Shown: positions 6,751 through 25,681 of the stretch, in pieces
How positions within the stretch are numbered: the first letter of the stretch is position 1
Layout: each line of letters opens with the position of its first letter
IMG/VR virus record: IMGVR_UViG_3300020428_002788
Location: 1 to 38,774 of that record
Reading direction: 5' to 3' (one strand)
DNA length: 38,774 nt
Source: a virus
Made by a program: the position numbers and the translations under genes
The notes under the pieces: model-generated
Databases searched by the model: none
What the model was told of the DNA's origin: nothing
What the model saw: the letters and a program-made list of their open reading frames with translations, nothing else

Positions 6751-7001
6751 TGATTGCTATACATAAAAGTTTAGATACTATTGACAATATACACGATAAA
6801 ACCTTTTATGGTTTAAGAACAGATTCAACAAGTAATTTGTCTGTAGATGTTATGAAATCAAATGACAGTAGTCCAATCGTCCTTCCAGACTCAGCGTATG
6901 CTAAAGATCCCGATGGATATAGACAGTATTTTTGGGCTAAAGATGCAATTACGTTTCGAATGAACACTAACACAGGACATCTGGAGATGGTTATTCTATG
7001 A
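6750..7001 (+). CDS. Small protein of unknown function in fibre operon
   Basis: An 83-aa protein translationally coupled on both sides: its ATG overlaps the preceding stop, and its stop overlaps the next ATG by 4 bp. It contains HDKTFYGLRTDSTSNLSVDV and ends ITFRMNTNTGHLEMVIL. The end could be a short beta hairpin of the sort used in virion adaptor proteins. I do not recognise the family. Context suggests a structural or assembly role with the 1377-aa protein that follows. Confidence 0.5.
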   Translation: MIAIHKSLDTIDNIHDKTFYGLRTDSTSNLSVDVMKSNDSSPIVLPDSAYAKDPDGYRQYFWAKDAITFRMNTNTGHLEMVIL

Positions 7002-11589: not shown

Positions 11590-12543
11590 ATGGCTAAGTA
11601 TTTAAAAGATAAGATCAGATATGGTCTTCAAGACGATATGATGTATGAAGGTTGGTGTTCGTGGGAAATGAGCCACATGGTTCAAAACGTGTATACAACT
11701 GACAATTGCGGATATAATCGTCATAGAACACATTGGTGCGTTCCATTTGGTGTTGGTTGTGCTATGTTTGAAATTTGGGGTGGCGGAGGCTATGGAACAG
11801 GTACTGAATGTTGTTCTGTATCAACTCCTCATGGATCCGGCGCTTACTCTAAGAAAACAATACCAGTATTTGGCGGAGAATGTTATTTTATACATGTAGG
11901 ATATTCTCATTGCTGCCAATCAGGCAGAGGAACAAAAAATGCTTCTGGCGGAAATAGAGAAAGAGCGAGAGACACTTACGTTATAGGTAGAGGACTATCA
12001 AACTTTTGTGCTGAAGTCGGCTACAGCGGTGTGAATTTGTGTAATTTTAAAAATCAATTCGATTCAGCAAGCGCTCCAGCTGCTGGAGGAGCATTTAAAA
12101 GAACATCTACTAATACAACTATGACAGGCGATTCAGCATCGTACTATTGTCAATACACTGCATTAGATTCAGGATGTGCTAAAGCGTATGGTGGAGACTA
12201 TATGACTCATGGACTTCCTGGGTTTATTATGCTTCCAGCTGATTCAAATCATACATTTGCAAATGCGGCTAATCATCCATGTGCTTATAAAGTTGGTGTA
12301 CCATACCCAGGTGGAGTTTTTGGATGTAAAGCAGGACATTTAGTACATTTCTTTTGTTCTGGTGCCGGTCTTGGTGGACACGATGTTCAAAACAATGCTA
12401 TTATGGGTGCTGGATTTGGTTGTGCATGTAATGCTAACTTCTTAGAAGCTGGATGGGGCATGGCAGGTAGTTGGAGTGACGGAAGTAGTTGTTGTTGCTC
12501 AGGACCAGCAAGACCCGGTAAAGTGAGAATCACTTACAGATAA
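11590..12543 (+). CDS. Cysteine- and glycine-rich adhesin-like protein A1
   Basis: A 317-aa protein with 21 cysteines (6.6%). The N-terminal 60 residues are followed by CAMFEIWGGGGYGTG, a CC pair, and GSGAYSKKT, a glycine-rich beta pattern found in phage fibre-tip proteins. A central stretch reads NFCAEVGYSG, and a PYPGGVFGCKAGH region follows. The C-terminus ends CCCSGPARPGKVRITYR. It is the first of four consecutive genes sharing this layout and is closest to A2 at 15265. The ribosome site is GAAGGAG. By context it is probably a virion adhesin. Whether the cysteines form disulfides or bind metal is unknown. I know no named family for it. Confidence 0.6.
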   Translation: MAKYLKDKIRYGLQDDMMYEGWCSWEMSHMVQNVYTTDNCGYNRHRTHWCVPFGVGCAMFEIWGGGGYGTGTECCSVSTPHGSGAYSKKTIPVFGGECYFIHVGYSHCCQSGRGTKNASGGNRERARDTYVIGRGLSNFCAEVGYSGVNLCNFKNQFDSASAPAAGGAFKRTSTNTTMTGDSASYYCQYTALDSGCAKAYGGDYMTHGLPGFIMLPADSNHTFANAANHPCAYKVGVPYPGGVFGCKAGHLVHFFCSGAGLGGHDVQNNAIMGAGFGCACNANFLEAGWGMAGSWSDGSSCCCSGPARPGKVRITYR

Positions 12544-12555
12544 AGGAATTTAAAT

Positions 12556-13920
12556 ATGGCTAAGCATATATCGCATTTTTCACCAGGGAATCAGGATTAT
12601 CAAGCAACGAATGACTGGTGTGAATTTATGGCATTAGATCAGACTTGCTCGCCGGCAAGTCACCGAGATGCACAATATGGAAATGCATGTAATAGATTCT
12701 GTATGCCTACCGGATTTGGCATGAATAACGATAGAAAAAAGTGTAATAGAGAAGCCAGAGTTGTAAAATATGGAATAAAATCTGGTGGTGGAGGAGCTTG
12801 GGGAAGCTGCTGTTGTATGTGGGGAGACCCAGCTGGAGGAGGAGCTTATATTCAAGGATGTCTTCCATCCGTTCCCGGTGAAGTATATTGCTATGTAGTA
12901 GCAATGGGCGCATGTTGTACGCCGGCGGATCATACATACGGATGCTTTTCTGGATTATGGTCACCAACACATTTTAATTGTGGCACGTGTGTTATGGGCG
13001 GCTATTGCGGTTCTAGTTCATGCTACTATAGTTATTGTTGTCAAGACCAAACAAATAATGCCGATTATAATAAAGTTTATTTAGGAGGTACTGCATACGA
13101 TTCAGCTGACATTCATAATGCAACAACTGGTCGAACACTTACTTCATGCGCCGGTACTCATGCAATTCTAAGACACGCAGGCCATACAATATATAAAGCC
13201 AATTGTGTATGCGGTACATATCGACCCGGTATGACTAATAGTACAGGCACATGTGTCCGAGGTATGGGATATGAAATAGGTTTACAACCTTCTTGGCGCG
13301 GTTTAAGTGATCCAGTTGACGATTGGAATCATATTCCGTATGGTGGGCATTGTTTTCCACATTGGCATAATAGGGCTAGTGATAAACCTAATAGAGAAAA
13401 TAAAACTACAGCTGGATTCCAATGTAATTATCAAAGAAATTTTAAAGCTCATACCTCAAATCATCAATCGCACGCATGTTCAACAGGATGTTGTTCTGCC
13501 GAAGGCGAATGTGTAATGAGATTATGTTCTATGTATGTATTTCATAGAGGTTTTACTATAACAGATTGTCACTATGGGTGTTCTGACTGGGATTGTAATA
13601 CAAGACCATATTCAAATAGCGGTGAAGGCGAATTTAATAGAGGAACTGGGCATGCTACAACTGGTCCAAACTGGAGACACTTTCCATATATAAATGCGTC
13701 AAGGGCGTGTGGTGGATTTAACTGGACCGGGTGGTATCAATGTGCTTGGGGTATGGGAGATGGTGGTCATTGTGAATATGGACCTCACTTTGATGGAATA
13801 GGTGGAGTGCCAGCAAACGTATGTGGCGGACCATGTTGTTGTGGTGGTCCTCCTGTTAGAGGCCATGTTATTTTAAAATATAGAAATACTAACGAAGCTG
13901 CATCCGGAAGGGAGTTATAA
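12556..13920 (+). CDS. Cysteine- and glycine-rich adhesin-like protein B1
   Basis: A 454-aa protein with 40 cysteines (8.8%), an extreme share for a phage protein. The N-terminal part has DYQATNDWCEFMALDQTC, then SGGGGAWGSCCC and GGGAYIQGC, then many CC, CxC and CxxC pairs (GACC, CVCG, STGCC). The end has CGGFNWTGWYQCAWG and CGGPCCCGGPPVRGHVILKYR. It is closely paralogous to B2, the next gene, and shares the glycine block and triple-Cys tail with A1 and A2. Its stop overlaps the start of B2 (TAATG). No signal peptide is seen. Probably an adhesin or fibre-tip protein. Confidence 0.6.
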   Translation: MAKHISHFSPGNQDYQATNDWCEFMALDQTCSPASHRDAQYGNACNRFCMPTGFGMNNDRKKCNREARVVKYGIKSGGGGAWGSCCCMWGDPAGGGAYIQGCLPSVPGEVYCYVVAMGACCTPADHTYGCFSGLWSPTHFNCGTCVMGGYCGSSSCYYSYCCQDQTNNADYNKVYLGGTAYDSADIHNATTGRTLTSCAGTHAILRHAGHTIYKANCVCGTYRPGMTNSTGTCVRGMGYEIGLQPSWRGLSDPVDDWNHIPYGGHCFPHWHNRASDKPNRENKTTAGFQCNYQRNFKAHTSNHQSHACSTGCCSAEGECVMRLCSMYVFHRGFTITDCHYGCSDWDCNTRPYSNSGEGEFNRGTGHATTGPNWRHFPYINASRACGGFNWTGWYQCAWGMGDGGHCEYGPHFDGIGGVPANVCGGPCCCGGPPVRGHVILKYRNTNEAASGREL

Positions 13921-15230
13921 TGGCAAGACATTTATCAAATTATTTGAGTGGCTATCAAGACTATGCATCTGTTCCTGATTGGTGTGAATTTATTAATCTT
14001 GAAAATAGATGTGAAGGCGGAAGTTATTACGAAGTTATTTATGGATCAAGCTGTAGTAGATGGTGCGCTCCATTATCAGATGCAGGAAGAAAATTAGCAG
14101 GCAAAGGAAAAAACTTTTCAAAAAAACCTGGGATTCCAGCTTCAGGAAATGGTGATGATGGTAAAAGATACGAAGGATATGCTGCAGTAGAAATTCAATC
14201 TACTGGCGGATGGGGCGGTGGCGGATGTTGTTGTACACAACCTTCTTCAGGCGGAGGCCAAGGAATATGGGTAAAAGAATGTCATAAAATGTACCCAGGC
14301 TATTTTGCGTGTTTTGTAACACCTCACCCTGGATGTTGTAGAACTGATATAAATGGGTGTCATGGATGTTGGTCTTTATATAGAAATCAAGCAGAAGCCC
14401 AATCAATGTGTGCTGAAGGCGGTTGGTGTGGAGGAACACACTGTTTTTCAATGTACTGTTGCGTAGACCAAACTTTTAATAGTGCACAATGGTGTACAGG
14501 AAATGATTGCGCAGCTGGATCTCAAGTTCCAAAATATGGAGCTCCAAGTGATCCCGCAGCAGGCGCCGGATATCATATTAATAATGGTGCACAAATTCAT
14601 ACTATATTCTTTAGATCTTGTCAAAACAACATAGGCAATTGTGCTAAAGAAGGATTTAACTCTGAACGAGCTCATGGAAGAATGCCATGGTTAGCTAATC
14701 CTACAGATAATGTAGGTGGAAATAGCATTCCATGTGGTGTGATGTGTCAAGAGCAAAAAACTTGGAATAATAGGTATAAAGGTTGGAACGGTAATGAAAC
14801 AAGCCTAGGCGAGCATTGTGGTGCAGCAGCACATTGCCAAAGATATCACACAACTGCTAGAGCATACGAACATGCTTGGGGATCTGCAGGTTGGACTGGA
14901 AGAGAATGTTTTGCAGGATGTATCGGTGAAAATTGCGGTGTAAAAATTATTGTAGGTGCTCCCGGAAGGGCTGGAAACATAGGAACCCAAACTAGAAAAG
15001 TAAGTGGAAATTCATGGGAAATAGTGCCTTTTATTAATAGTGCAAATACTTGCGGTGGGTTTGAACATATTCGCTGGCATATGTGTGCATGGGGAAATGT
15101 CGGTGACGTTGGTTGCCAACAAAATATAAGAGATGCTGGAAGAGGTGGTATACCAACAGCAGTATGCGGACAACCTTGTTGTTGCGGTGGTCAGCCGGGA
15201 CCGGGTGTAACTTTAATTAGATATAGATAA
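13920..15230 (+). CDS. Cysteine- and glycine-rich adhesin-like protein B2
   Basis: A 436-aa protein with 36 cysteines (8.3%), a paralogue of B1. Shared blocks include YQDYASVPDWCEF, WGGGGCCC, GGWCGGTHC-x4-CC-x-DQT, CGGFEHIRWHMCAWG and GGIPTAVCGQPCCCGGQPGPGVTLIRYR. Between these anchors the two proteins differ greatly. B2 has an extra lysine/glycine-rich stretch near residues 60-85 that B1 lacks. Conserved frame with divergent loops is what one expects of receptor-binding proteins under diversifying selection. It is translationally coupled to B1 and followed 9 bp later by a late promoter. Confidence 0.6.
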   Translation: MARHLSNYLSGYQDYASVPDWCEFINLENRCEGGSYYEVIYGSSCSRWCAPLSDAGRKLAGKGKNFSKKPGIPASGNGDDGKRYEGYAAVEIQSTGGWGGGGCCCTQPSSGGGQGIWVKECHKMYPGYFACFVTPHPGCCRTDINGCHGCWSLYRNQAEAQSMCAEGGWCGGTHCFSMYCCVDQTFNSAQWCTGNDCAAGSQVPKYGAPSDPAAGAGYHINNGAQIHTIFFRSCQNNIGNCAKEGFNSERAHGRMPWLANPTDNVGGNSIPCGVMCQEQKTWNNRYKGWNGNETSLGEHCGAAAHCQRYHTTARAYEHAWGSAGWTGRECFAGCIGENCGVKIIVGAPGRAGNIGTQTRKVSGNSWEIVPFINSANTCGGFEHIRWHMCAWGNVGDVGCQQNIRDAGRGGIPTAVCGQPCCCGGQPGPGVTLIRYR

Positions 15231-15239
15231 TACGTTTTG

Positions 15240-15247
15240 TATAAATA
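15240..15247 (+). promoter_or_regulatory. T4-type late promoter TATAAATA
   Basis: An exact consensus in the 34-bp gap between B2 and A2, 18 bp upstream of the ATG at 15265. It gives the last adhesin gene its own late transcript. Confidence 0.75.
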
Positions 15248-15264
15248 GATTATAGAGGATAAAA

Positions 15265-16203
15265 ATGGCAAAGAACTTAAGAACTTTATTACCCGTTACC
15301 GATATGGCCGTTGGTCGAATGAAAGGTTCGTCGCTTTTTTGGAAGCCCGGGCCTGAAGGCTGGGAGTCCGGTGGTGCTAGAAAATGTAGTACATATAATG
15401 CTAATTCCGCTACAAGATCAATTGACAGATTTCATTGGGCTGTTCCTGCAGATACTAGAATAGCTACTTTTGAAATTTGGGGTGGCGGAGGAAGCGGCGG
15501 TGGTGCTTGGTGTTGCCAACAAGGTATTCCCGGAGGTTCAGGAGCTTATGCAAGAAAAACTGTTAAAGTAAATGCAAATGATACATATGTATTTTGTACT
15601 TGTACAGCAGTTCATTGTTGTTATGCAACTCAAAACAATCACAGTTGTGGTAAAAGAGGCGGAAAAACTTACGTTGTAGGTAATGGATTAAATAACTTTT
15701 GTGCAGAAGGTGGAAATGCTGGATTAGCATGTTGCTTTTTCTTTAGCTCATATAGACATAACGAATATATGTATATGTGTGATCTAGTTGGAAGATCTAT
15801 TGGAGATTCTGATAATGATGTTCATAATAGAGCATGTTTTTATGGAACTAATCATGGGACAAGAGGTGTGTATGGATGGGCTCAAACGGGCTGTTGTGGT
15901 TCTGATTATGGATCAGATGCACACATTTGCGCAATGAAAACAGGAGTTCCTTTCCCAGGTGGTTTATTTATGTGGGGTAGAGCACTAAGAGGCGGAGTTG
16001 TTCATAAAGGATTATCATACGGATGTTCATGTTACTATGATATTCATGACGGATGTTCTGGAAGATCAGCACATAGTACAATTGGCGGAGGTTGGTATGC
16101 AAGGCTTCCCGGAGAAGGAGGAACTACTGCTATGGTTCAAGGCGGACCGTGCTGTTGCGGATCACAAGGGGCCTATGGGGCTGTAAGAGTAACTTGGGAG
16201 TAA
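15265..16203 (+). CDS. Cysteine- and glycine-rich adhesin-like protein A2
   Basis: A 312-aa protein with 22 cysteines (7.1%), a paralogue of A1. Shared blocks are TFEIWGGGGSGGG with a CC pair, PGGSGAYARKT, TYVVGNGLNNFCAEGGNAG, GVPFPGGLF and the tail GGPCCCGSQGAYGAVRVTWE. The N-terminus (NLRTLLPVTDMAVGRMKGSS) differs from A1. It has its own late promoter and a GAGG ribosome site. The gene 3 bp downstream may serve it. Probably a virion adhesin; biochemical function unproven. Confidence 0.6.
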   Translation: MAKNLRTLLPVTDMAVGRMKGSSLFWKPGPEGWESGGARKCSTYNANSATRSIDRFHWAVPADTRIATFEIWGGGGSGGGAWCCQQGIPGGSGAYARKTVKVNANDTYVFCTCTAVHCCYATQNNHSCGKRGGKTYVVGNGLNNFCAEGGNAGLACCFFFSSYRHNEYMYMCDLVGRSIGDSDNDVHNRACFYGTNHGTRGVYGWAQTGCCGSDYGSDAHICAMKTGVPFPGGLFMWGRALRGGVVHKGLSYGCSCYYDIHDGCSGRSAHSTIGGGWYARLPGEGGTTAMVQGGPCCCGSQGAYGAVRVTWE

Positions 16204-16206
16204 TAA

Positions 16207-16935
16207 ATGATTAAGACTACAAAACAATTTACATATAAACTACCTGATGATTATACTCTTCAAACAAATGAAGCAGATTCTTCAGGAACTTGGACATACA
16301 AAGGCCCAAGATATTACGCATGTTATATAAATTCCGGTGGATTTGTTGATACATTTTCGCAAATTTCAGAACCAGAAGACTTAGTAGATAGATCTTCTAG
16401 TGATGATAATATTGCAGCAAATTTTGTTGTTGACGCTAACACTAGTCAAGGCGCTTTACTTGCTTCTATATTTGTTGGAAATCCAGATTCAGATACATCT
16501 GATTCGTCAGTGTTTCCTCATATTTCAATACCAACTCCAAATGGAACAGTTTATAAAAGACCTCATCCAACGCAACCCGATCATACATATGAAAAAAACA
16601 AAATTAAATATGATTTAAATAATGACAAATGGAATGAACCATTTCCTTGGTTTAAACCGTTTATGAAATGGGAAGGAATTGAAGGATGGGTCAAAACTTC
16701 TCGAAAGCTATTTGAAGAAACTCAGGCCGATAGTGCAGGATGGAATGCTTTAACAACTGCTAAGAAAAAAGAATGGACTGATTGGGATAGTGATATGGCA
16801 AACGCTATTAAAAATTATAAAGCTGCAGGATTAAAGCCACACCATATTGTGATTATAGATCCTCCGGGCGTAAGAGATGATGTTTATGATCCTAGCAAAC
16901 CAACACATGATAGTAACGGCAATCCCGTAACATAA
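16207..16935 (+). CDS. Unknown protein after adhesin array, possible fibre-assembly factor
   Basis: A 242-aa protein starting 3 bp after the A2 stop. It opens MIKTTKQFTYKLPDDYTLQT, contains WTYKGPRYYACYINSGGF, and has a central acidic and serine-rich stretch (PEDLVDRSSSDDN). The C-terminal half is tryptophan-rich: NDKWNEPFPWFKPFMKWEGIEG, then a helical region ending AIKNYKAAGLKPHHIVIIDPP. It has a single cysteine, unlike its upstream neighbours. I do not recognise the family. In many phages a chaperone or tail-fibre assembly gene directly follows the receptor-binding gene, so an assembly role is a context-only guess. Confidence 0.5.
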   Translation: MIKTTKQFTYKLPDDYTLQTNEADSSGTWTYKGPRYYACYINSGGFVDTFSQISEPEDLVDRSSSDDNIAANFVVDANTSQGALLASIFVGNPDSDTSDSSVFPHISIPTPNGTVYKRPHPTQPDHTYEKNKIKYDLNNDKWNEPFPWFKPFMKWEGIEGWVKTSRKLFEETQADSAGWNALTTAKKKEWTDWDSDMANAIKNYKAAGLKPHHIVIIDPPGVRDDVYDPSKPTHDSNGNPVT

Positions 16936-16989: not shown

Positions 16990-17023
16990 ATTAATATACA
17001 ATTTACACGTGAGGTGCAATACA

Positions 17024-17977
17024 GTGGAAAAAAGATCTTCAGCATTTTTTATGAATGGTGGGGCAGGAAGAGTTCTTAGCTCAATACCCGCATTCGAAAT
17101 TTACGAAAAAGAAAATCCAGATGATGATTTTATCATTGTTTGTGAAGGCGGCATGGAAATGCTTGCTGGTCATCCTACTCTTCATAAGAGATGCTTTGAC
17201 AATTGGCATAAAGATCTCTTTGAAAAATACATCAAACACAGACATTGTATTACTTTAGAACCATATAGAATATGGGAATACTATAATCAAAAAGCTTCTA
17301 TTACCCAAGCATTTGATATTCAAATGTCAAATAAAGGCGTAAGAGATCTTGGTGATCCTACTATCTATTTAAGTTCTATTGAATCCGCAGAAGGTTATAA
17401 TATCATAAAAGATGTGAAAGAAAAATCTGCAAAACAACGTGTTATAGCAATGCAACCTTATGGAAGAAGTTCACAAAGAGTAGGTGAAGAATTAATTGAT
17501 GTAGGTGGAAGATCTTTTAGAACTCAAGATGTAGTAAAGATTGTTAAAAAACTACAACAAAAATATGCTATAATTATGATGACAGAGCACCCTGCTGATT
17601 TTCAAAAAATGGGATGTCCTGATCCAGTAGCCCAACCAGAAGGTGCGCCGTTAAGGATATGGGGTGGAATTATTAAAGCTGCAGATTGTTTTCTTGGATG
17701 CGATAGTGTTGGACAACACATGGCCTATGCTTTAGGGACTCCTGCTGTAGTTTGTATTGGAGCTACGTTTCAAGAAAATATCAGTTATCCAGATAGTAAA
17801 AAGTTTCAAGTTCTTGATTTAGGAGGCGATAAACGAGTTTACGATCCAATTCGTATTTCAATGGAAGATGAAAAAATGCGTACCAACGATGGCATTATGT
17901 CTTTATCTGATGCTGCAGTAAATGAAATTGTAAAAGAGATAGATACAATAGTATCTAATAACCTTAGAGGAAAATAA
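17024..17977 (+). CDS. GT9-like glycosyltransferase (heptosyltransferase-type)
   Basis: About 317 aa from GTG 17024, chosen because GAGGT lies 8 nt upstream; an in-frame GTG at 17009 precedes that ribosome site and is unlikely. The opening FFMNGGAGRVLSSIPAFEIYEK fits the glycine loop of GT-B enzymes. Residues 220-239, ADCFLGCDSVGQHMAYALGTP, match the C-terminal signature of GT9 (LPS heptosyltransferase family), where the Asp in G-x-DS-G and the following His/Met-Ala region bind ADP-heptose. The next strand is VVCIGATFQ. It is first in a coupled operon with the carbamoyltransferase and dioxygenase, next to genes for ADP-heptose synthesis. A heptosyltransferase role is a well-supported inference; other NDP-sugars are possible. 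Confidence 0.6.
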   Translation: MEKRSSAFFMNGGAGRVLSSIPAFEIYEKENPDDDFIIVCEGGMEMLAGHPTLHKRCFDNWHKDLFEKYIKHRHCITLEPYRIWEYYNQKASITQAFDIQMSNKGVRDLGDPTIYLSSIESAEGYNIIKDVKEKSAKQRVIAMQPYGRSSQRVGEELIDVGGRSFRTQDVVKIVKKLQQKYAIIMMTEHPADFQKMGCPDPVAQPEGAPLRIWGGIIKAADCFLGCDSVGQHMAYALGTPAVVCIGATFQENISYPDSKKFQVLDLGGDKRVYDPIRISMEDEKMRTNDGIMSLSDAAVNEIVKEIDTIVSNNLRGK

Positions 17978-19854
17978 TGACTGAAGAAATTAATATGACG
18001 CCCGATATTCCACAACGAGATCTTTGGATTGCAGGAGTTTCAAGAGGACATAATTCTTGTGTTTGCTTATTGAAAAATGGTGAAGTTGTTTTTGCTATTG
18101 AAGAAGAAAGACTTACTCGTCGAAAATATGATGGAGCACCATTAGCTGCATTGAATATGATTTTTGATTATACTAAAAAATTAGATTATTTAGTTCTTGT
18201 ACATACTCAAGGGTTAGAAGTCGGAGGCCACCTTGAATTTACGGGTGAAGATGTATATACTGGATGGGCAAGAAAAATGGGATTGATTGATGATAGTGCT
18301 CAATGGTCACAAGATGGTCATCCTCAAATTATTGAAATATCGGATAGACATCATAAAATGCATGCAGCGTGTGCTTTTTATAGATCTGGGTTTGAAGACG
18401 CAGTAGCTCTTATTGCAGATGGCGCCGGTTCTATGCTTCCATATCATGACCAAATGAGAGGTCAAAGATCAGTATGGGAATATGAAACTATTATGGAATG
18501 CTCATATCCTGCAATATTTAAAACTAGGTATAAGCACGTTGGATGCGCTGATCCAATATTTCCAAGATGGGATCCTAAAGTTGATGGTGAATTTTGTGGA
18601 GAGCCGGGAAATGAAATTTCTATAATGAACGATGATAGAGGTGGAATCACTAAAACATACGAAGCAGTTACTCAATATTTAGGGTGGCAACCTATTGAAG
18701 CAGGTAAAACTATGGGGTTGTTTCCTTATGGAATCGAGAATGGTACACTTCCTCCATTTTTTGACGAATGGTCAAAAATGCCGGGTTCTTTTAATAGAAA
18801 CGTATTTATGCCAAATACCCCTAATGGAGCTTTCGTGAATACTGGTTTTTATGAACAGTTTCAAACAAGTGAAGAAGAAATGGAAGCTGCTAAAGGCGAT
18901 TTTACTAAATTGCAAGTTGGTAGAGATGTCGCATTTAAGGTGCAAAAAGAAACGCAGCGCGAAATGATTAAGCTTATTAAACACGCAGTAGAAATGACAG
19001 GAAAAACAAATGTTGTTATTTCCGGTGGATATGCTCTTAATTGTGTTGCTAATTATGAATATCTTGATGCATTAAAAGAAGAAGGCATTACGATATATGT
19101 CGAACCAGTATCAAGTGACGCAGGAACTGCAATTGGCGGTGCGCTATTTCAACACTATGCGTTAACAAACGAAGACACTATTAGAGATTATGGAAAAACT
19201 CTTTACTTAGGACCCGAATATAATATTGATCATAAAAAAGTTCAAGATGTTTTGCCTGAGAATGGTGTGGTTGTAGACACAGATGATGATGAAGTTGTTG
19301 AACTTTTAACGCAAAAAAATATTGTTTGTGTGTGGCAAGGTAGATCAGAAAACGGTCCTCGCGCGCTCGGGAATAGAAGTATATTATTTGATCCAACGTT
19401 TGCAGACGGAAAGGATTACGTTAATGCAATTAAAAGGCGTGAATATTTTAGGCCGTTTGCAGGAAGTATTTTAGAAGAAGATGTTCATGATTGGTTTGAT
19501 TTAAGAGGAATGGAAAGATCTTCACATATGATGTATGCTGTTAATTGTCAACCTGGGATTGAAGAAAAAATTCCTAGCATTATTCATATAGATGGATCTT
19601 GTAGAATACAAACTGTAAATAAAGAAGAAAATCCTCTTTATCACCAGCTTATTAGTAAGTTTAAAGAAAAAACTGGCGTTCCAATTGTATTTAATACTAG
19701 CTTTAACTTAGGTGGAGAACCTCTTGTTGAAACATTAGAAGATGCAATAAGAACTCTTGAAAACTCTGATCTTGAATACCTTTACTTGCCTGAGCTTAAG
19801 CTAATGATTAATATACCAAATGCAAATGAGGATGCTAGTGGTGAAATATTATGA
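17977..19854 (+). CDS. NodU/TobZ-family O-carbamoyltransferase, full length
   Basis: A 625-aa protein, normal length for this family. The N-terminal Kae1-like (ASKHA) domain has VSRGHNSCVCLL-NGEVVFAIEEERLTRRK, the metal-binding HHKMHA (His125, His126, His129), ADGAGS (147-152) and SGGYALN (349-355). The C-terminal domain carries the hallmark GRSENGPRALGNRS (455-468), REYFRPFAGSIL and VFNTSFNLGGEP. TobZ-type enzymes use carbamoyl phosphate and ATP to make carbamoyl-AMP, then move the carbamoyl group to a hydroxyl of a sugar or small molecule. Its ATG overlaps the preceding stop (TAATG), and its 3' end overlaps the dioxygenase start. With heptose genes nearby, a heptose acceptor is attractive; a nucleotide acceptor is the main alternative. 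Confidence 0.9.
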   Translation: MTEEINMTPDIPQRDLWIAGVSRGHNSCVCLLKNGEVVFAIEEERLTRRKYDGAPLAALNMIFDYTKKLDYLVLVHTQGLEVGGHLEFTGEDVYTGWARKMGLIDDSAQWSQDGHPQIIEISDRHHKMHAACAFYRSGFEDAVALIADGAGSMLPYHDQMRGQRSVWEYETIMECSYPAIFKTRYKHVGCADPIFPRWDPKVDGEFCGEPGNEISIMNDDRGGITKTYEAVTQYLGWQPIEAGKTMGLFPYGIENGTLPPFFDEWSKMPGSFNRNVFMPNTPNGAFVNTGFYEQFQTSEEEMEAAKGDFTKLQVGRDVAFKVQKETQREMIKLIKHAVEMTGKTNVVISGGYALNCVANYEYLDALKEEGITIYVEPVSSDAGTAIGGALFQHYALTNEDTIRDYGKTLYLGPEYNIDHKKVQDVLPENGVVVDTDDDEVVELLTQKNIVCVWQGRSENGPRALGNRSILFDPTFADGKDYVNAIKRREYFRPFAGSILEEDVHDWFDLRGMERSSHMMYAVNCQPGIEEKIPSIIHIDGSCRIQTVNKEENPLYHQLISKFKEKTGVPIVFNTSFNLGGEPLVETLEDAIRTLENSDLEYLYLPELKLMINIPNANEDASGEIL

Positions 19855-20453
19855 TGTGGTTAATAAATCCCGAAGAGCAATCGGCATATAGCTGGGGATT
19901 TAATAATGCTTTAACAGATGAAGGTTGGAAGTCTTTAAACGACTATATTGCTGCTAATCCAACATCAAAGGCAGAGATATTAAATCCACAAGTTGACGAC
20001 AAAGCTTTTAAAGAAAAAGAAGTTCGTGATACTGATATAACGTGGATTAGCAGTGAAAATGAAATTTCAAAACCGTTGTATTTTAATATAGGAAAACTCG
20101 CTGAAGAGGCAAATAACGTTTTTTTTAACTATAATTTGTCAATGGTTGAAACGCTTCAGTATTCAGTATATAATGCTCCGACTGGTCATTATGATTGGCA
20201 TATAGATGCTATGCACAAAGGCCAACATGGACTTACGCGAAAAATTTCGTTTAGTATTGGATTAAATGATCCTAGTGAATATGAAGGCGGTGAATTAATT
20301 ATTGGTGCGCCAGGAATGTATGAAACTTCACACAAATTAGAAAAAAATCAAATTGTATTTTTTAATTCAATAGTAACTCATAAAGTTACACCTGTAACCA
20401 AAGGAGTTAGAAAATCTCTTGTTGGTTGGATTAAAGGTCCAAATTTCGTTTAA
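19851..20453 (+). CDS. 2-oxoglutarate/Fe(II)-dependent dioxygenase
   Basis: A 200-aa protein with the prolyl-4-hydroxylase-like double-stranded beta-helix. Iron ligands are His117 and Asp119 in YDWHIDA and His177 in THKVTPV. Arg187, ten residues later (KGVRKSL), would bind the 2-oxoglutarate carboxylate. Between them sit LTRKISFSIGLND and YEGGELI, as in PKHD-type hydroxylases. ATGA overlap couples it to the carbamoyltransferase, and its stop overlaps the convergent phosphatase gene by 4 bp. It is probably a hydroxylase acting in the same pathway, for instance making or editing the hydroxyl that is carbamoylated. The substrate cannot be read from sequence. Confidence 0.85.
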   Translation: MMWLINPEEQSAYSWGFNNALTDEGWKSLNDYIAANPTSKAEILNPQVDDKAFKEKEVRDTDITWISSENEISKPLYFNIGKLAEEANNVFFNYNLSMVETLQYSVYNAPTGHYDWHIDAMHKGQHGLTRKISFSIGLNDPSEYEGGELIIGAPGMYETSHKLEKNQIVFFNSIVTHKVTPVTKGVRKSLVGWIKGPNFV

Positions 20454-21091
20454 AGAGTTTCTGCAAAATCAAGTAATGATTCGAATACTTTTGTACGTCT
20501 TTTTAATGCTTTGTTTGCAAAGCTGTTCAACTTTTTTAGGTCGGATATGTCCGACTGAACAAGGATCGGTGATATGCCAGCTTTCATTGCCATTTTAGCA
20601 TCCATTACTTGATCACCTATATAATATCCATTTTTATATGGGACTTTAAATTCATCTCTCATTCTTTTTAGCATACCCGTATTTGGTTTTCCAAATATGT
20701 CGTGCTTATTATTTCCTTCATTATAAAGAACACAGTCAATACTTGGGCAGCCATGGTTTCCAAGCAATTCTATAACATACATGTTTCCTTCTTCAACTTC
20801 TTCATGAGTAATTGTTTTGTTAGATAATCCGGGTTGATCGCAAATCATTGCAATTTTATGGCCTTTACGTCTTATCATAGCAATTGCTTTAAATGCATCT
20901 ATAATAGGAATAGCGTTTTCTTTTCTTATTGGCTCACCATTAGTTTCAAACAAAACACCATCTCTATCAAATGCAACCATTGGCTTAGAATATTTTGCCA
21001 TACGTTGCTCGTGTGTTAAGTTTGAATCTTCACTAAGATTCTCTTGAGGTTGAGGGTCTGCTTTCACAGACCCCCACATATTATAACTCAT
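20450..21091 (-). CDS. gmhB: HAD phosphatase, GmhB-like heptose-bisphosphatase
   Basis: A 213-aa protein. HAD motif I is FDRDGV (nucleophile Asp42, acid Asp44), motif II lies at ICDQPG, motif III is Lys135 in GKPNTGM, and motif IV is IGDQVMDAKMA (Asp160, Asp164). KPNTGML recalls the KPxPGM signature of D,D-heptose-1,7-bisphosphate phosphatase and of the HisB phosphatase. The zinc-binding cysteine loop of typical GmhB is missing: only NNKHDIFGKP stands where a CxC pair is expected. A 35-residue N-terminal extension is unusual. It is last in the minus-strand heptose operon and overlaps the epimerase gene by 11 bp, with GGAGG upstream. The family is secure, the substrate inferred from context. 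Confidence 0.7.
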   Translation of the reverse strand: MSYNMWGSVKADPQPQENLSEDSNLTHEQRMAKYSKPMVAFDRDGVLFETNGEPIRKENAIPIIDAFKAIAMIRRKGHKIAMICDQPGLSNKTITHEEVEEGNMYVIELLGNHGCPSIDCVLYNEGNNKHDIFGKPNTGMLKRMRDEFKVPYKNGYYIGDQVMDAKMAMKAGISPILVQSDISDLKKLNSFANKALKRRTKVFESLLDFAETL

Positions 21092-21902
21092 AATTTATGT
21101 AATCCTCCACTGGAAACCAATTCATTTTTACAGTACTATTTAACTTATTAAGATTAGCTTTAGTATATTCTTGATATTGGTTTTTTAAGTTATCAGGCAT
21201 AGGAATTCTATTCACATTGCTTTCATACTTTTCAGCAATCATAATTGCAATTTCTTCAAATGAAGTAGCTACTCCTGTACCAGCATTCCAAATGCCACTT
21301 TCATTTACATCTAACATTCTATAATGTAGTTCACAAATGTCTCCTACAAACACAAAGTCTCTTTTAAAATTTTCAGAGCCTTCAAAAATATCAATTTCAT
21401 GTTTCCAAACTGCTTCATGAAAAAACTTACTTATGGGAGAAGCTTGGTCTTTTTTGTGATCTTCATGTGGACCATATACATTAAAGTAGCGAAACCCTTG
21501 AACTCTACTTATTGGAGACTGTGATTCAACATATCTATCAAACAAGTATTTGCTTGTTGCATAATAATTTAAAGGCTCTTTAGCTCCATCTTCTGTAGAG
21601 TTTTTATTATGGCCATACACAGAAGCAGATGATGCGTATTGTAACATGATATGTTTGTCTTGGCATTCATCATACAACCTTTTACTAAAATCATAATTTC
21701 TTTCTAAGATATGTTTTATATCGCTACACGTGGTATCTGTTTCTGCGCCTAAATGAATGACTGTGTGCATTCCTTTTAGATTAGGAAAATGATCGTCATT
21801 ATCGTAATATTCAAATCCAGTTACGTCGTGACCTTTAGACTTCAAAAAGGTCATCATGTTCTGACCGATGAACCCCTTGTGACCTGTGATTAGAATGTTC
21901 AT
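21081..21902 (-). CDS. hldD: NAD-dependent epimerase, HldD-like (ADP-heptose 6-epimerase)
   Basis: A 273-aa extended short-chain dehydrogenase. The NAD(P)-binding loop is ITGHKGFIG (5-13). HLGAETDTT (50-58) is the block found in ADP-L-glycero-D-manno-heptose 6-epimerase. Catalytic residues fit S-A-S-V-Y-G (92-97) and Y114-x3-K118. FNVYGPHEDHKKDQASPISKF and RDFVFVGDI complete the substrate domain. HldD converts ADP-D,D-heptose to ADP-L,D-heptose, the donor for LPS heptosyltransferases. It is shorter than the roughly 310-aa bacterial enzyme. The start has GAGGG upstream. Its 5' end overlaps the kinase gene by 68 bp. Function is supported by motifs and by four neighbouring heptose genes. Confidence 0.8.
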   Translation of the reverse strand: MNILITGHKGFIGQNMMTFLKSKGHDVTGFEYYDNDDHFPNLKGMHTVIHLGAETDTTCSDIKHILERNYDFSKRLYDECQDKHIMLQYASSASVYGHNKNSTEDGAKEPLNYYATSKYLFDRYVESQSPISRVQGFRYFNVYGPHEDHKKDQASPISKFFHEAVWKHEIDIFEGSENFKRDFVFVGDICELHYRMLDVNESGIWNAGTGVATSFEEIAIMIAEKYESNVNRIPMPDNLKNQYQEYTKANLNKLNSTVKMNWFPVEDYINYEL

Positions 21903-22767
21903 TTTCTATTACCCTCTTTATTTCTTTATCTAACTCGTCATTGTCTAGACAAGTCGTGCCTTGGTGTTTTACAGCTTGCCCAGCCATTGTGTTTGCTACA
22001 ATGATTGATTGATACATATGCATATTCATAAAGCAACACAACGCTAATGCTGCGGTGAAAGTATCTCCTGCTCCTGTTACGTCATAAACTTCTGTTTCAA
22101 TTGCAGGATAATGCTCTATATAATCTCCTACATATACGACTCCTTCTGGTCCAAGTGTCACTAAAAAGTGTTCTACATTTAATTCGTCCCGCGCGCGACG
22201 CGCTTCTACGAGAACTTGTTTAGGATTTAATTCTTTTCCTGTCCATTCTTCAAATTCTTTTTTATTTGGTTTTAATACCCACGCTCCTCGATATTCTTCA
22301 AGAGGTTTTTTAGGATCTACAATACATCGTTTAGCTTTTTGTATTATAGTTTGTGGGTTTTTTATAGTTCCTTTATTATAGTCTGATAATACAACAAGAT
22401 CATAAGGATTATCAATTTCAAATTGATCTTCTACAATCGTTTCTTTAATTGGCTTTTCATGGTCTATTCTTGACATTAAATATTGGTTAGACATAATTCT
22501 TGTTTTATGAGGCATAACTTCTGTGTATTCAAGCTTTCCTTCTACCTTTAACGTTTCGAATATATAGTTATGGATATGATCTTTATAACCATGCAAAAGA
22601 ACATCATTGGTAGCTGCGCGAATGTTAGTGAATACATTTCCTGCACCGCCTAAAGACGATCTTTTGTTAATTAAATTGACAATTGGTACTGGCGCTTCTG
22701 GCGATAAACGGTTTACGTTTCCAGTCCAATATTCGTCAATGATAAGATCTCCTATAACATGAATCAA
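21835..22767 (-). CDS. hldE: HldE kinase domain (heptose 7-phosphate kinase), PfkB family
   Basis: A 310-aa protein matching the N-terminal half of bifunctional HldE. VIGDLIIDEYWTGNVNRLSPEAPVP is an almost exact version of the HldE opening (split here as residues 4-28). SLGGAGNV, LSDYNKG (127-133) and TGAGDTFTAAL (231-241, base Asp235) are the ribokinase-family substrate, linker and ATP motifs. It would make heptose-1,7-bisphosphate from heptose-7-phosphate. The start is TTG, chosen because GGAGG lies 7 nt upstream; the nearby ATG is out of frame. The nucleotidyltransferase half is a separate gene about 2.5 kb away (25286-25681), with the bilin genes and two others between. It overlaps hldD by 68 bp. 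Confidence 0.85.
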   Translation of the reverse strand: MIHVIGDLIIDEYWTGNVNRLSPEAPVPIVNLINKRSSLGGAGNVFTNIRAATNDVLLHGYKDHIHNYIFETLKVEGKLEYTEVMPHKTRIMSNQYLMSRIDHEKPIKETIVEDQFEIDNPYDLVVLSDYNKGTIKNPQTIIQKAKRCIVDPKKPLEEYRGAWVLKPNKKEFEEWTGKELNPKQVLVEARRARDELNVEHFLVTLGPEGVVYVGDYIEHYPAIETEVYDVTGAGDTFTAALALCCFMNMHMYQSIIVANTMAGQAVKHQGTTCLDNDELDKEIKRVIENEHSNHRSQGVHRSEHDDLFEV

Positions 22768-22773
22768 ATTTAA

Positions 22774-22786
22774 TCCTCCGAGGTGA
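22774..22786. promoter_or_regulatory. Back-to-back Shine-Dalgarno sites of divergent genes
   Basis: In TCCTCCGAGGTGA, CCTCC is the minus-strand GGAGG for the kinase TTG at 22767, and GAGGTGA serves the heme oxygenase ATG at 22789. Only 21 bp separate the two coding regions, leaving no room for promoters between them. Confidence 0.7.
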
Positions 22787-22788
22787 TT

Positions 22789-23373
22789 ATGAATAACTTA
22801 AAACAACTTACTAACGATATTCACAGAAAGGCTGAAAATAGCCCTTGGGCAAAGCTTTTAATAAGCGGTGATATGACACCAGAACAATACGGTACATATT
22901 TATGGAACCAATTGGCTGTTTATGAAGCATTAGAAAACCGCGCTCTTGAAAAAAAGGTACTTAGTGCGACTTTGGCAAAAAGATTGAGAAGGGTACATTA
23001 TATTAATGATGATATTAACTACTATCCTAAAATTTGGAAAAAATTTCCAGCTACATTTGAGTACATTGAGTATTGCAAAAAGATTCAACCTGATCAAATT
23101 TGGGCTCACATTTATGTAAGACATTTTGGTGATATGTTTGGTGGCAATATGATTAAAGAAAAATTGCCTAAACCAAAACCACAAATTGATCATATGCCTC
23201 CTTCTGAACTTAAATATCCGGGACAAATGTATTATTATTTTGAAAATAAAAGTGAAATTATTACTGAAGTGAGATCTCAATTAAATGACTCCATGGTTGA
23301 TGAATGTATTTATTGCTTTGAAAGTGCAACTAAACTTTTCAATAATTTAGAAAAACATTACAATGTTTCATAA
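22789..23373 (+). CDS. ho1: Heme oxygenase (HO-1 type)
   Basis: About 194 aa from ATG 22789, with GAGGT 4 nt upstream; the GTG at 22783 lies inside the ribosome site. LTNDIHRKAEN places His12 as the proximal heme ligand, as in the THxxAEN motif of bacterial and cyanobacterial heme oxygenases. HIYVRHFGDMFGGN (G114-N120) corresponds to the distal-helix GDLSGGQ motif. The length is close to the 200-240 aa of the family. It opens heme to biliverdin IXalpha, CO and iron, using reduced ferredoxin. The next gene overlaps by 11 bp and encodes a bilin reductase that would use the biliverdin directly. The pair sits antisense within the heptose operon. Confidence 0.88.
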   Translation: MNNLKQLTNDIHRKAENSPWAKLLISGDMTPEQYGTYLWNQLAVYEALENRALEKKVLSATLAKRLRRVHYINDDINYYPKIWKKFPATFEYIEYCKKIQPDQIWAHIYVRHFGDMFGGNMIKEKLPKPKPQIDHMPPSELKYPGQMYYYFENKSEIITEVRSQLNDSMVDECIYCFESATKLFNNLEKHYNVS

Positions 23374-24013
23374 ACTTGTTCCATTCGCTGATAAGATGCA
23401 AGAAATAATTACAAATGCATCTGTTGGTATAAAATACCATGACTTCCCATGGCCAGCAATAACTCTCGAAGGAGACGGCTGGAGGAAAGCTGATATTGAT
23501 GTTCTCGATATGCGAGAAACTAAAAAGCTTTGGATGATGCATGTTTGCATTTATCCGCATTTTGATGATCCTTCTCCCATTTTTGGATGGGATATAATAT
23601 CAGGCCCTAAAAAAATTACAGGCGCTTTTCATGATTGTTCTCCTATTGAACCTTCTCATTCTATTATAACACAGTTTGGGCAGAATGTAAAGGACTTTAT
23701 TCCATCTAAGAAAAGAGAACTTCCACCATGGGCTAAAGCGATATTTAGCGAAAATATGATCGCCGCGAGTAATATCCGGACTGATGAAGAGCTCGATAAA
23801 CTTCTAGAGGTAGTGTTGTCAAATTTAACTTTCTTTCTCGACAATGTCGGTTTGAGTAGAGATTTTCAATCAGATTATAAAGATAAACATAATTTTTATT
23901 GTAAAATGCAAAAGGAAAATCCTCATACACCTAGAGTTATGGAAAGCTTAGGTGTCGACCCCGATCTCGTTAGGAGATATATCGAAACCTGTCTTTTTCC
24001 CGAAGTAAGCTAA
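23363..24013 (+). CDS. pcyX: Ferredoxin-dependent bilin reductase, PcyX/PcyA lineage
   Basis: A 216-aa protein. Lining it up by eye with PcyA, WMMHVCIYP-x4-PSPIFGWDIISGP matches the PcyA block LHCVMFP...LFGCDIVAGP. His60 falls on PcyA His88, and Asp77 on the catalytic Asp105 with the same 17-residue spacing. RELPPWAKAIFSE matches the PcyA RELPPWGEIFSE block. The PcyA Glu76 position falls in an ambiguous stretch (DIDVLDMRE) and may not be conserved, as would suit a four-electron reductase making phycoerythrobilin rather than phycocyanobilin. PcyX enzymes of this lineage were described from uncultured oceanic phages. Translation is probably coupled to ho1. The last 66 bp overlap the convergent carbamoyltransferase-like gene. 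The family is firm; the product is inferred. Confidence 0.85.
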   Translation: MFHKLVPFADKMQEIITNASVGIKYHDFPWPAITLEGDGWRKADIDVLDMRETKKLWMMHVCIYPHFDDPSPIFGWDIISGPKKITGAFHDCSPIEPSHSIITQFGQNVKDFIPSKKRELPPWAKAIFSENMIAASNIRTDEELDKLLEVVLSNLTFFLDNVGLSRDFQSDYKDKHNFYCKMQKENPHTPRVMESLGVDPDLVRRYIETCLFPEVS

Positions 24014-24889
24014 TACACAAGATTTTGCAGATCCACCATCACCAGGATTATCTGGTACCCATAACTTAAATCCAGCATCTTGTATTTTTAACCTCACTCC
24101 TCTATTAAAGGCACATCCTCCAGATAAAATTACATTTTTGCATTTTAATTTTTTTGTCCAATGCTTTACGACTTTTAATACCATTTCTTCAAAAAGATAT
24201 TGAGTTGAAGAAGCTATTTCAACTTGGTTATAATGTTCATAATCTCCGCCGGCACCCTTATGCAAATTGTATGAAAACACTGGTCGCCATGGATCATTAC
24301 TAATAATTAAATTGTCTTCTAATTCTTTAAGTAATCTAACATTTGTCATTCCAATACTACCAAGAGATTCGAATGCCGCTTCATCTTTTTGAGGCTTCAT
24401 ACCAGCCTCTTTAACCATTGAGCTATAAAATAATCCTAAGCTATCAGGATATCGTTGTGAACCCATTTTATATAGGTTATCTTTAACACCATGCCAAACT
24501 GATGTGCAATCCCATTCACCAATGCTATCAATAACAACTATTACTGCGTCATTCCATTCAGATTGATAGTAATGTGCTGCATGAGCTTTGTGATGTTGTA
24601 CATATGTCCACTTAGTATTAAGTCCTAAATCTTTAAGATATTTGCTAACGTTATTTCTACTAAATGGTTTAGATTGTCTGGCCCATAATTGCCTAAGAGC
24701 TTTTGTGTAAGGGTTTTCGTACCATACTACTAAGTCTGGACGATAATTTTTACTTACAGAAATAAAATCTCTTTTAAGTAATTTATGATGAGTCTTATCG
24801 CGCGTATAAGCTTCATATATTAATCTGTGGTCGTCCCAAACGGTGAGACTTGCATCATGCCCCTTACCTGACATGCCCCAAATTATCAT
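23948..24889 (-). CDS. Short carbamoyltransferase-like protein (Kae1-like domain only)
   Basis: A 313-aa protein resembling only the N-terminal ASKHA/Kae1-like half of NodU/TobZ carbamoyltransferases. It has IIWGMSGKGHDASLTVW, HHKAHA (His99, His100, His103), VIDSIGEWD, LGLFYSSMVKEAG, KDEAAFESLGS, SGGCAFNRG and PDNPGDGGSAKS. The roughly 230-residue C-terminal YrdC-like part that makes carbamoyl-AMP, with its GRSE-GPRALG motif, is absent, and no frameshifted remnant follows it. Metal and nucleotide motifs look intact, so decay is unlikely. It may take carbamoyl-AMP made by the full-length enzyme at 17977 or have another ATP-dependent transfer role. TAATG couples it to the cupin gene. Confidence 0.75.
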   Translation of the reverse strand: MIIWGMSGKGHDASLTVWDDHRLIYEAYTRDKTHHKLLKRDFISVSKNYRPDLVVWYENPYTKALRQLWARQSKPFSRNNVSKYLKDLGLNTKWTYVQHHKAHAAHYYQSEWNDAVIVVIDSIGEWDCTSVWHGVKDNLYKMGSQRYPDSLGLFYSSMVKEAGMKPQKDEAAFESLGSIGMTNVRLLKELEDNLIISNDPWRPVFSYNLHKGAGGDYEHYNQVEIASSTQYLFEEMVLKVVKHWTKKLKCKNVILSGGCAFNRGVRLKIQDAGFKLWVPDNPGDGGSAKSCVLAYFGKKTGFDISPNEIGVDT

Positions 24890-25299
24890 TAGTTATTTCC
24901 TTTATAAGGTTGTGACCCTGGTACCTCATCTATAACTGTGTTTTTTTGTGAATCACCTTTACCAACTCTAAAATTATCTTCAACTGAATCTGGCGTTGAT
25001 ACTTCGAGGATAGTTCCTTCTGTAGCACAAATTAATTTATGAGGCTCACCGGGCGTATTAACTATAACTGCTCCTGCTTGTACAGTTCTTGCTGTCTTTG
25101 TAGCATTATCAGTATTTATTTTTTGTACAACGAATTCACCACCTAACACATACCACGTTTCATGTTTTTTAATATGGAAATGCATTGACATTTCTTTGCC
25201 GGGTTTCATTTTAAGAAGCTTTCCGCAATACATATCATTTGTTGCAAAAATAACTTCTTCTCCCCAACCTTTTTTCACTCTTCCTTCAAGTCTTGCCAT
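24889..25299 (-). CDS. Cupin, mannose-6-phosphate isomerase type II-like
   Basis: A 136-aa single-domain cupin. GWGEEVIFAT and MKPGKEMSMHFHIKKHETWYVL give the metal ligands His40, His42 and Glu47, and PGEPHKL gives His87. The W-G-x-E start and the K-H-E-T-W-Y-V-L pattern are those of type II phosphomannose isomerase or sugar-nucleotide cupin domains. It overlaps the nucleotidyltransferase gene by 14 bp and is coupled to the carbamoyltransferase-like gene. In this operon it could isomerise a sugar phosphate, perhaps upstream of heptose synthesis in place of the missing GmhA, but cupins are versatile and this is speculative. GGAG precedes the ATG at good spacing. Confidence 0.75.
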   Translation of the reverse strand: MARLEGRVKKGWGEEVIFATNDMYCGKLLKMKPGKEMSMHFHIKKHETWYVLGGEFVVQKINTDNATKTARTVQAGAVIVNTPGEPHKLICATEGTILEVSTPDSVEDNFRVGKGDSQKNTVIDEVPGSQPYKGNN

Positions 25300-25681
25300 T
25301 TATAAACTCCAATATTTTGCTTGACGATTCAGATGGATATAAGTCCAGTATTTTAATCATAGCATATTCTTTTCCTACAACATACTCTGGTTCATAATCA
25401 CCACCTTTAGTTATATATGTAGGTTTTACTTTCTTTATTAATTCAATAGGCGTATCTTCATTAAATATAATAACTTCATCTACACATCTCAATGATTCTA
25501 AAACTTTTTTTCGATTATGCTCTGAATGAAACGGTTTTCTTTTAATTCGTTCCATAGAAGCATCTGAATTAAGTCCTACAATTAGTTTTCCACCTTGACA
25601 TATCCTTTTAGATTCTTCTAAATAATCAATGTGACCAGCGTGAATGATGTCGAAACATCCATTTGTAAAAACTGTTATCAC
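25286..25681 (-). CDS. hldE: HldE nucleotidyltransferase domain (ADP-heptose synthase)
   Basis: A 131-aa protein matching the C-terminal half of bifunctional HldE (RfaE2). TNGCFDIIHAGHIDYLEES contains the HxGH nucleotide-binding motif (His14-His17). GLNSDASMERIKR, FNEDTPIELIKKVKPTYITKGGDY and the final SSSKIL complete the fold. It would adenylylate heptose-1-phosphate to ADP-heptose. The start is GTG, with GGAG about 7 nt upstream. It is the first gene of the minus-strand operon, divergent from gp13. A glycerol-3-phosphate cytidylyltransferase is the nearest alternative, but the kinase, phosphatase and epimerase in the same island favour heptose. Confidence 0.85.
   Translation of the reverse strand: MITVFTNGCFDIIHAGHIDYLEESKRICQGGKLIVGLNSDASMERIKRKPFHSEHNRKKVLESLRCVDEVIIFNEDTPIELIKKVKPTYITKGGDYEPEYVVGKEYAMIKILDLYPSESSSKILEFINGKT

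Follow-up and report, generated by a model that had tools for sequence, protein, structure and literature searches.

In bacteria, ADP-heptose is made by the GmhA-HldE-GmhB-HldD pathway, and functional ADP-heptose enzymes have also been reported in viruses (Tang et al. 2024, as described in passages of the commentary PMC11461863). In the survey of that study, according to the same passages, nucleotidyltransferases were intersected with the three remaining types of enzyme, and no viral phosphatase was found. Here we describe a heptose gene cassette in the IMG/VR record IMGVR_UViG_3300020428_002788, a linear-class record of 38,774 bases with T4-like structural genes (the window, by which we mean this whole stretch), where it lies between the tail-fibre genes and gp13, which places it in the tail-fibre module of a marine, T4-like phage. 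The window shares the kinase, phosphatase, adenylyltransferase and epimerase families with the bacterial pathway but differs in having the kinase and adenylyltransferase on separate genes and a small cupin in the place of GmhA. It also differs from the viral enzymes of Tang et al. in having a GmhB-like phosphatase, and the commentary passages name no cupin isomerase.

The closest described relatives are the tail-fibre cassettes of the cyanophages P-SSM2 (PSSM2_307-314), S-CAM1 (SXBG_00216-222), S-CAM3, S-SSM7 and Sf-FS3, in which genes for a GT9-like protein, a Nol-like carbamoyltransferase, an adenylyltransferase, a kinase, a small HAD protein, a cupin and an epimerase occur together. This gene set is common to the window, except that the cyanophages have a HAD protein of about 110 amino acids labelled 'phosphoheptose isomerase' where the window has the GmhB-like phosphatase. 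The cyanophage cassettes adjoin tail-fibre or structural genes, with gp13 no more than about 8 kb away except in the P-SSM2 stretch examined, and in S-SSM7 a gene annotated as tryptophan halogenase stands among them (L009, 19164-20651). Among 50,697 phage records, the GT9-like protein matched 26 and the cupin 35. The cassette itself is known from sequenced cyanophages; what is new is the role of the cupin, which we consider likely to stand in for GmhA.

According to this, five phage enzymes would build ADP-heptose from host sedoheptulose-7-phosphate: the cupin would isomerise sedoheptulose-7-phosphate, replacing GmhA, and an HldE-type kinase, a GmhB-like phosphatase, an HldE-type adenylyltransferase and an HldD epimerase would carry out the following steps. 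A preliminary description of this DNA had named the last four, together with heptosyltransferase-type and carbamoyl-transfer genes, and had noted that only GmhA was missing. All the named genes are intact open reading frames with Pfam, NCBIfam or PHROG matches at the expected places (Table 1), and the four assignments hold on NCBIfam matches and motifs. That the pathway is phage-encoded was also correct, but other phages share the cassette. The cupin (24889-25299) and a pair of bilin genes (22783-24013) had no part in that account. As for GmhA, the SIS_2 model found none in the window record, which is a fragment, and the SIS_2 and SIS models found none in any of 13 phage records; seven of these are full-length genomes with pathway genes, and all seven carry a small cupin gene. 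The same SIS_2 search was positive in 11 of 14 control genomes. A GmhA elsewhere in the genome, as the preliminary description had suggested looking for, can thus be rejected for the full-length relatives, the window itself being a fragment. We also rejected the cyanophage genes labelled 'phosphoheptose isomerase' as GmhA, since the four scanned score as EcbF/BcbF-type HAD proteins and none as SIS, and therefore look like alternative phosphatases. As there is no GmhA in the pathway, we describe it as a variant that begins with another enzyme, and the step that had seemed missing is probably covered by the cassette cupin, which would make the pathway complete from sedoheptulose-7-phosphate via a predicted non-orthologous phosphoheptose isomerase.

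The distribution of the two isomerase candidates in viral contigs agrees with such a replacement. We examined loci of up to 10 kb on each side of an anchor gene, often contig fragments, around the best 80 of at least 595 cupin, 269 GmhA, at least 588 kinase and at least 510 GT9-like relatives; census thresholds were fixed in scripts, with slightly different HldC and GmhA cut-offs between the two censuses. The cupin-anchored loci held the kinase in 60, the adenylyltransferase in 55, the epimerase in 54 and GmhA in none, and Pfam SIS_2 was also without a match in the 80 whole cupin-bearing viral contigs (0/80). The cupin was present in all 12 of the first-aligned loci with an epimerase. Conversely, 27 of the 80 GmhA-anchored loci held the kinase and none the cupin, and GmhA was found in none of the 80 GT9-anchored loci. 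The kinase-anchored scan used an alignment holding both cupin-linked and GmhA-linked kinases, and gave 40 loci with the cupin, 14 with GmhA, none with both and 26 with neither (P = 1.5e-5 for zero overlap by chance). This remained so among 64 representatives at 70% identity, with 32 cupin, 11 GmhA and 21 neither (P = 1.7e-4). A small number of contigs recur among the cupin-, GmhA- and kinase-anchored sets.

The strongest support for the cupin as a stand-in for GmhA comes from archaea. In 237 genomes from the phylum of a Woesearchaeota metagenome-assembled genome (MAG), 57 had a strong HldE-kinase match, and of these 15 had the cupin only, 31 GmhA only, two both and nine neither (Fisher 5e-6), with cut-offs chosen after the lists had been seen (130 bits or more for the kinase, about 65 for the cupin and about 60 for GmhA, GlmS-sized proteins excluded) and a weak SIS_2 match in G136 (32 bits) left out of the GmhA count. 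Twelve of the 15 cupin-only archaea have the cupin gene near that of the kinase or fused with it, the exceptions being G206, G136 and G181. Twenty archaeal regions were fetched, and these contain kinase-cupin fusions (L379, L380, L381 and L382, the last at a contig end) as well as kinase-GmhA fusions (L393, L394 and L395). Furthermore, GmhB, cupin and adenylyltransferase are joined in a single fusion in L389. Four archaeal loci (L384, L385, L386 and L392) have the order cupin-HldD-HldK-(GmhB-HldC), and the sole GmhA operon fetched (L396) reads GmhA-HldD-HldK-GmhB. We found no paper in the open-licence literature joining heptose, archaea, HldE, fusion and isomerase.

The residues of the cupin also point to an isomerase. 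H40, H42, K45, E47, H87 and E99 (HxHxxKxE...H...E) are invariant in all 128 viral cupins, that is, copies of 105-160 amino acids from the window and the cupin-anchored and GT9-anchored loci. H40, H42, K45 and a KGWG block were partly selected by the search patterns in the 80 cupin-anchored loci, whereas the columns of E47, H87, E99, D108 and R111 are free of this selection. The same residues occur in all 18 aligned copies from cellular records, some of whose contigs look like binned phage. The whole phage cassette occurs on contigs of MAGs named Rhodobacteraceae and Euryarchaeota (L110 and L121, perhaps also L105, L112 and L113), and these look like binned phage contigs. For the Thermofilum D-lyxose isomerase, passages of PMC8378251 name H75, H77, E88 and H143 as metal ligands and K86, two residues before the Glu, as one of two candidates for stabilising the cis-enediol. 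The predicted metal ligands and lysine of the phage cupin match those of D-lyxose isomerases, and its profile aligns with the Bacillus subtilis enzyme 2y0o over KxETF, where the window reads KHETW. The conversion of fructose-6-phosphate to mannose-6-phosphate is the same reaction as that proposed here, one carbon shorter. D-lyxose/D-mannose isomerases (YdaE 2y0o, TsLI 7nzo and Z5688 3kmh) thus resemble the phage cupin in metal ligands, the KxE lysine and cupin fold, and run the ketose-aldose chemistry that for the phage protein is predicted; the phage cupin differs in being shorter, with about 16-22% identity, and in being linked to heptose genes. The PF07385 model matched seven of 12 cupin members at E 0.01, and Cupin_2 scored higher and matched all 12. 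The database label that this likely isomerase carries, 'cysteine dioxygenase', would then be misleading. No paper in the open-licence literature combined cupin with phosphoheptose isomerase; the terms cupin, GmhA and sedoheptulose co-occur there in one review, on cold-active enzymes.

Several observations weigh against this role of the cupin. The best PDB sequence matches of its profile are MncA/oxalate decarboxylases, above the sugar isomerases, and the predicted fold (pLDDT 88.4) matches CapF (Z 16.1), an archaeal phosphomannose isomerase, D-lyxose isomerase (Z 14.0) and many other cupins (Z 14-15) with no clear winner, so that the modelled fold by itself does not discriminate. Twelve of the 80 cupin-anchored viral loci lack any pathway gene, and the kinase is missing from 16 of the 27 cellular cupin loci; 19 genomes of this cellular set entered the SIS_2 check and 18 copies the residue alignment mentioned above. 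Some SIS_2 match, GlmS-sized ones included, was present in 16 of the 19 genomes, and exclusion in cells is therefore limited to the archaeal set. Even there, G302 and G092 hold both genes; in G302 it is GmhA that adjoins the kinase, in G092 the cupin, and the remaining gene is on a separate contig. It is in line with the PDB matches, with the cellular cupin loci lacking the kinase and with the 26 kinase-anchored viral loci holding neither gene that the cupin might not be an isomerase of this kind, with heptose-7-phosphate supplied by host GmhA and the cupin serving in anomer or nucleotide-sugar isomerisation or in metal sensing. We regard this as unlikely, because a cupin step required in addition to GmhA would not readily account for the exclusion between the two genes in phages and archaea or for the parallel fusions, and because 66 kinase-anchored viral loci lack GmhA and 40 of these have the cupin.

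The identity of the sugar was considered separately. The kinase, adenylyltransferase, epimerase and phosphatase matches each span most of their NCBIfam models, and the HldE-kinase motifs and HldD motifs (YxxxK, HKxxxAS) align with those of E. coli K-12. Against a heptose product, the four NCBIfam scores all fall short of the curated cut-offs of NCBI, and the adenylyltransferase of the window has SSS in place of the STT of E. coli and, as we read the motif, lacks an Arg five residues before it. On the same reading, this Arg is present in 59 of the 76 adenylyltransferases of these loci. The kinase and adenylyltransferase could thus make another nucleotide-activated sugar, which seems highly improbable to us given that four families of one pathway stand side by side, that archaeal operons have GmhB together with GmhA or the cupin, and that the HldD motifs are kept. 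An Arg five residues N-terminal of STT goes, though not strictly, with use of CTP or UTP besides ATP (Tang et al., in the commentary passages, PMC11461863). As the window enzyme lacks it, ADP is likeliest to be the nucleotide here, judging from the motif. A single-sequence HldD scan of viral contigs returned one relative only. Additionally, the phosphatase varies. Of the GT9-anchored loci, 48 hold kinase, cupin and epimerase, and these had GmhB in 18, the small HAD in 27, both in none and neither in three. In a wider set of 111 viral loci that combine the same three genes with the adenylyltransferase, 16 had GmhB, 43 the small HAD, one both and 51 a match to neither model. The counts of this wider set speak against one fixed phosphatase. 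Both types are present in AG-345-O18 (L005).

The heptose would be transferred by the GT9-fold protein and carbamoylated by the NodU/TobZ-type protein. A GT9-like transferase had been proposed before, and its fold bears this out: the AlphaFold2 model (pLDDT 90.5, pTM 0.89) gave the Veillonella GT9 protein 3tov as top match (Z 23.8, root-mean-square deviation 3.6, 282 residues), followed among others by WaaF (22.0), TibC (20.2) and WaaC (19.1). The GT9 entries listed span Z 23.8-18.4, and the non-GT9 matches were two chains of a plant NDH-PSI complex (19.4 and 18.9) and others from 12.0 down. TibC/AAH autotransporter heptosyltransferases share this fold with the phage protein, with 11% identity in the case of TibC. 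These enzymes use ADP-heptose as donor and protein as acceptor. The C-terminal DSxxxH motif is kept and NCBIfam matches are weak (TIGR02201, 2.2e-5). A search of PDB sequences with the profile gave no relevant match. It counts against the transferase assignment that no Pfam family, GT9 included, matched at E 0.01, and that Arg21, invariant in 45 of 45 sequences, sits at the position of the Asp of the GD motif in WaaC and WaaF. The Asp of this N-terminal motif is the catalytic base of WaaC. Because of this Arg, we named the protein 'GT9-like' and did not file it as a GT9 member. Regarding carbamoylation, where two NodU/TobZ-type enzymes had been supposed, CarbA has both domains and a homologue in 77 of the 80 GT9-anchored viral loci, but CarbB has the N-terminal half only and so falls outside the two-domain definition of NodU/TobZ. 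S-SSM7 and Sf-FS3 also have a second, shorter carbamoyltransferase.

The acceptor would most likely be the phage's own tail-fibre or adhesin proteins, perhaps first hydroxylated by the 2-oxoglutarate (2OG) oxygenase, a proposal that we hold to be evenly poised. The candidates adjoin the cassette (Table 1): a tail fibre and five small proteins, three of which (12556-16203) are tandem and Gly/Cys-rich by eye and are perhaps adhesin tips. Homologues of three of the small proteins occur in GT9-bearing phages, and the 11590-12543 protein has matches in 17 of the 50,697 phage records, 16 of them records with the GT9-like gene; the 17th, AG-345-E02, shares its source name with another record bearing that gene. 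Among the 80 best GT9-anchored loci, 44 are longer than 20 kb, and these carry a full carbamoyltransferase in 44, a fibre homologue in 43, a member of the small-protein families in 39 and a fibre or Gly-rich/small-protein gene in all 44; 33 of them hold two or more heptose genes. In two of three loci with a distant GT9-like gene that were searched with PHROGs (L062 and L056), a tail-fibre or fibre-assembly gene is just upstream. Other results do not fit the fibre link. No heptose genes are nearby in 10 of the 44 long GT9-CarbA loci, the fibre and Gly-rich models were without a match in all 10 loci that carry a distant GT9-like gene and extend over 15 kb or more (eight cupin-anchored, two kinase-anchored), PHROGs gave no fibre match in the third distant locus (L032), and the tail-fibre module is described as a general hypervariable cargo site in passages of PMC7029224. 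Among the open-licence papers listed, this is the one that brings cyanophages, tail fibres, glycosylation and heptose together.

The preliminary description had the phage remodelling the host envelope, among other uses, and this is possible, although position and co-occurrence point first to virion fibres and adhesins. For two further uses that it had listed, a block of ADP-heptose signalling and glycosylation of DNA, we saw no supporting sign, and no test was aimed at either. The same cupin-containing pathway could place heptose, carbamoylated or not, on a host surface glycan, where in the outer polysaccharide it would block superinfecting phages. The pelagimyophage survey reads the lipopolysaccharide (LPS) genes of the hypervariable region in this way (passages of PMC7029224), the LPS-acting WaaC and WaaF share the GT9-like fold, and in S-SM2 and P-TIM68 the pathway genes are inside larger sugar-gene clusters without the GT9-like gene. 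On the other side, the GT9-CarbA pair adjoins fibre genes in its clade, and both heptose and 3-deoxy-D-manno-octulosonic acid (KDO) are absent from the LPS of the marine Synechococcus strains WH8102 and CC9311, most cyanobacteria reviewed, with the exception of Spirulina, having LPS without heptose (passages of PMC4515613). The ordinary acceptor of WaaC is therefore lacking in these two strains, although Synechococcus may not be the host of the window phage. Sf-FS3, which infects WH8102, carries the cassette. Taking the fibre link together with the heptose-free LPS of this host, we favour a virion acceptor and consider the host glycan the main alternative, though a rather doubtful one.

The window cassette has on the plus strand the GT9-like protein, the full carbamoyltransferase and the 2OG oxygenase, followed by phosphatase, epimerase and kinase on the minus strand, two bilin genes on the plus strand, and the half carbamoyltransferase, cupin and adenylyltransferase on the minus strand. 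Three further loci (L289, L290 and L291) repeat this order from the GT9-like gene to gp15, for the genes modelled, so that the cassette is not an assembly accident; L292 has the same order minus the heptose genes. The bilin genes are extra with respect to the cyanophage cassettes, and the portal is closest to that of Phage C48C1 (68%), followed at 52-54% by the Pelagibacter phages Mosig and HTVC008M, Methylophilales phages and cyanophages such as S-CREM1. In pelagiphage Mosig, the bilin pair and 2OG oxygenases adjoin gp13 with no heptose genes nearby, and hemO-pcyX pairs are known from marine phages (passages of PMC11480375). A tRNA search of the window found none, and PADLOC on six window proteins found just a generic 2OG domain. 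At the left end (79-2264) are three minus-strand genes, two without a PHROG match and one with a weak one.

Table 1. Coordinates of the cassette genes and neighbouring candidates in the window, with supporting matches.
Feature	Position	Strand	Support
Neighbouring tail fibre with CBM5/12 modules, candidate acceptor	6998..11131	+	phrog_9851 1e-198; PF02839
Five small proteins adjoining the fibre, candidate acceptors	11590..16935	+	No Pfam match for the five
GT9-fold heptosyltransferase-like protein	17009..17977	+	phrog_8954, PHROG 3e-130
NodU/TobZ-type carbamoyltransferase, both domains (CarbA)	17977..19854	+	PF02543 2e-24, PF16861 4.6e-59
2OG-Fe(II) oxygenase	19851..20453	+	PF13640 1.6e-16
GmhB-like HAD phosphatase	20450..21091	-	PRK08942 (GmhB type) 1.5e-18
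HldD-like ADP-heptose 6-epimerase	21081..21902	-	TIGR02197 1.8e-67, best-matching stretch beginning at model position 64
HldE kinase domain (heptose-7-phosphate kinase)	21835..22767	-	TIGR02198 E 3.1e-65; DVTGAGDT motif
Heme oxygenase, between pathway genes	22783..23373	+	PF01126 7.2e-19
Ferredoxin-dependent bilin reductase, PcyA/PcyX type	23363..24013	+	PF05996 3.2e-14; 44.8% to Mosig
Second carbamoyltransferase, N-terminal half only (CarbB)	23948..24889	-	PF02543 6.4e-19, no PF16861
Cupin, predicted phosphoheptose isomerase replacing GmhA	24889..25299	-	Lyx_isomer (PF07385) 21.8 bits, cut-off 20.8
HldE adenylyltransferase domain (HldC-like)	25286..25681	-	TIGR02199 5.9e-40

Taken together, a cupin-started ADP-heptose pathway leading to carbamoylated heptose on fibres or adhesins falls, as a whole, slightly short of an even chance in our judgement. 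More tentatively still, the cupin family may be a second, independently evolved sedoheptulose-7-phosphate isomerase, in phages of hundreds of viral contigs and in an archaeal branch, and marine T4-like phages may decorate their own fibres with carbamoylated heptose by means of a GT9-fold transferase of altered catalytic site. If so, a gap in a widespread viral sugar pathway would be closed and two database labels would be corrected, 'phosphoheptose isomerase' on a phosphatase-like gene and 'cysteine dioxygenase' on a likely isomerase. Surveys that demand GmhA for a heptose pathway would overlook such phages and archaea, and, if the acceptor is the fibre, these would be phages with their own protein heptosylation.

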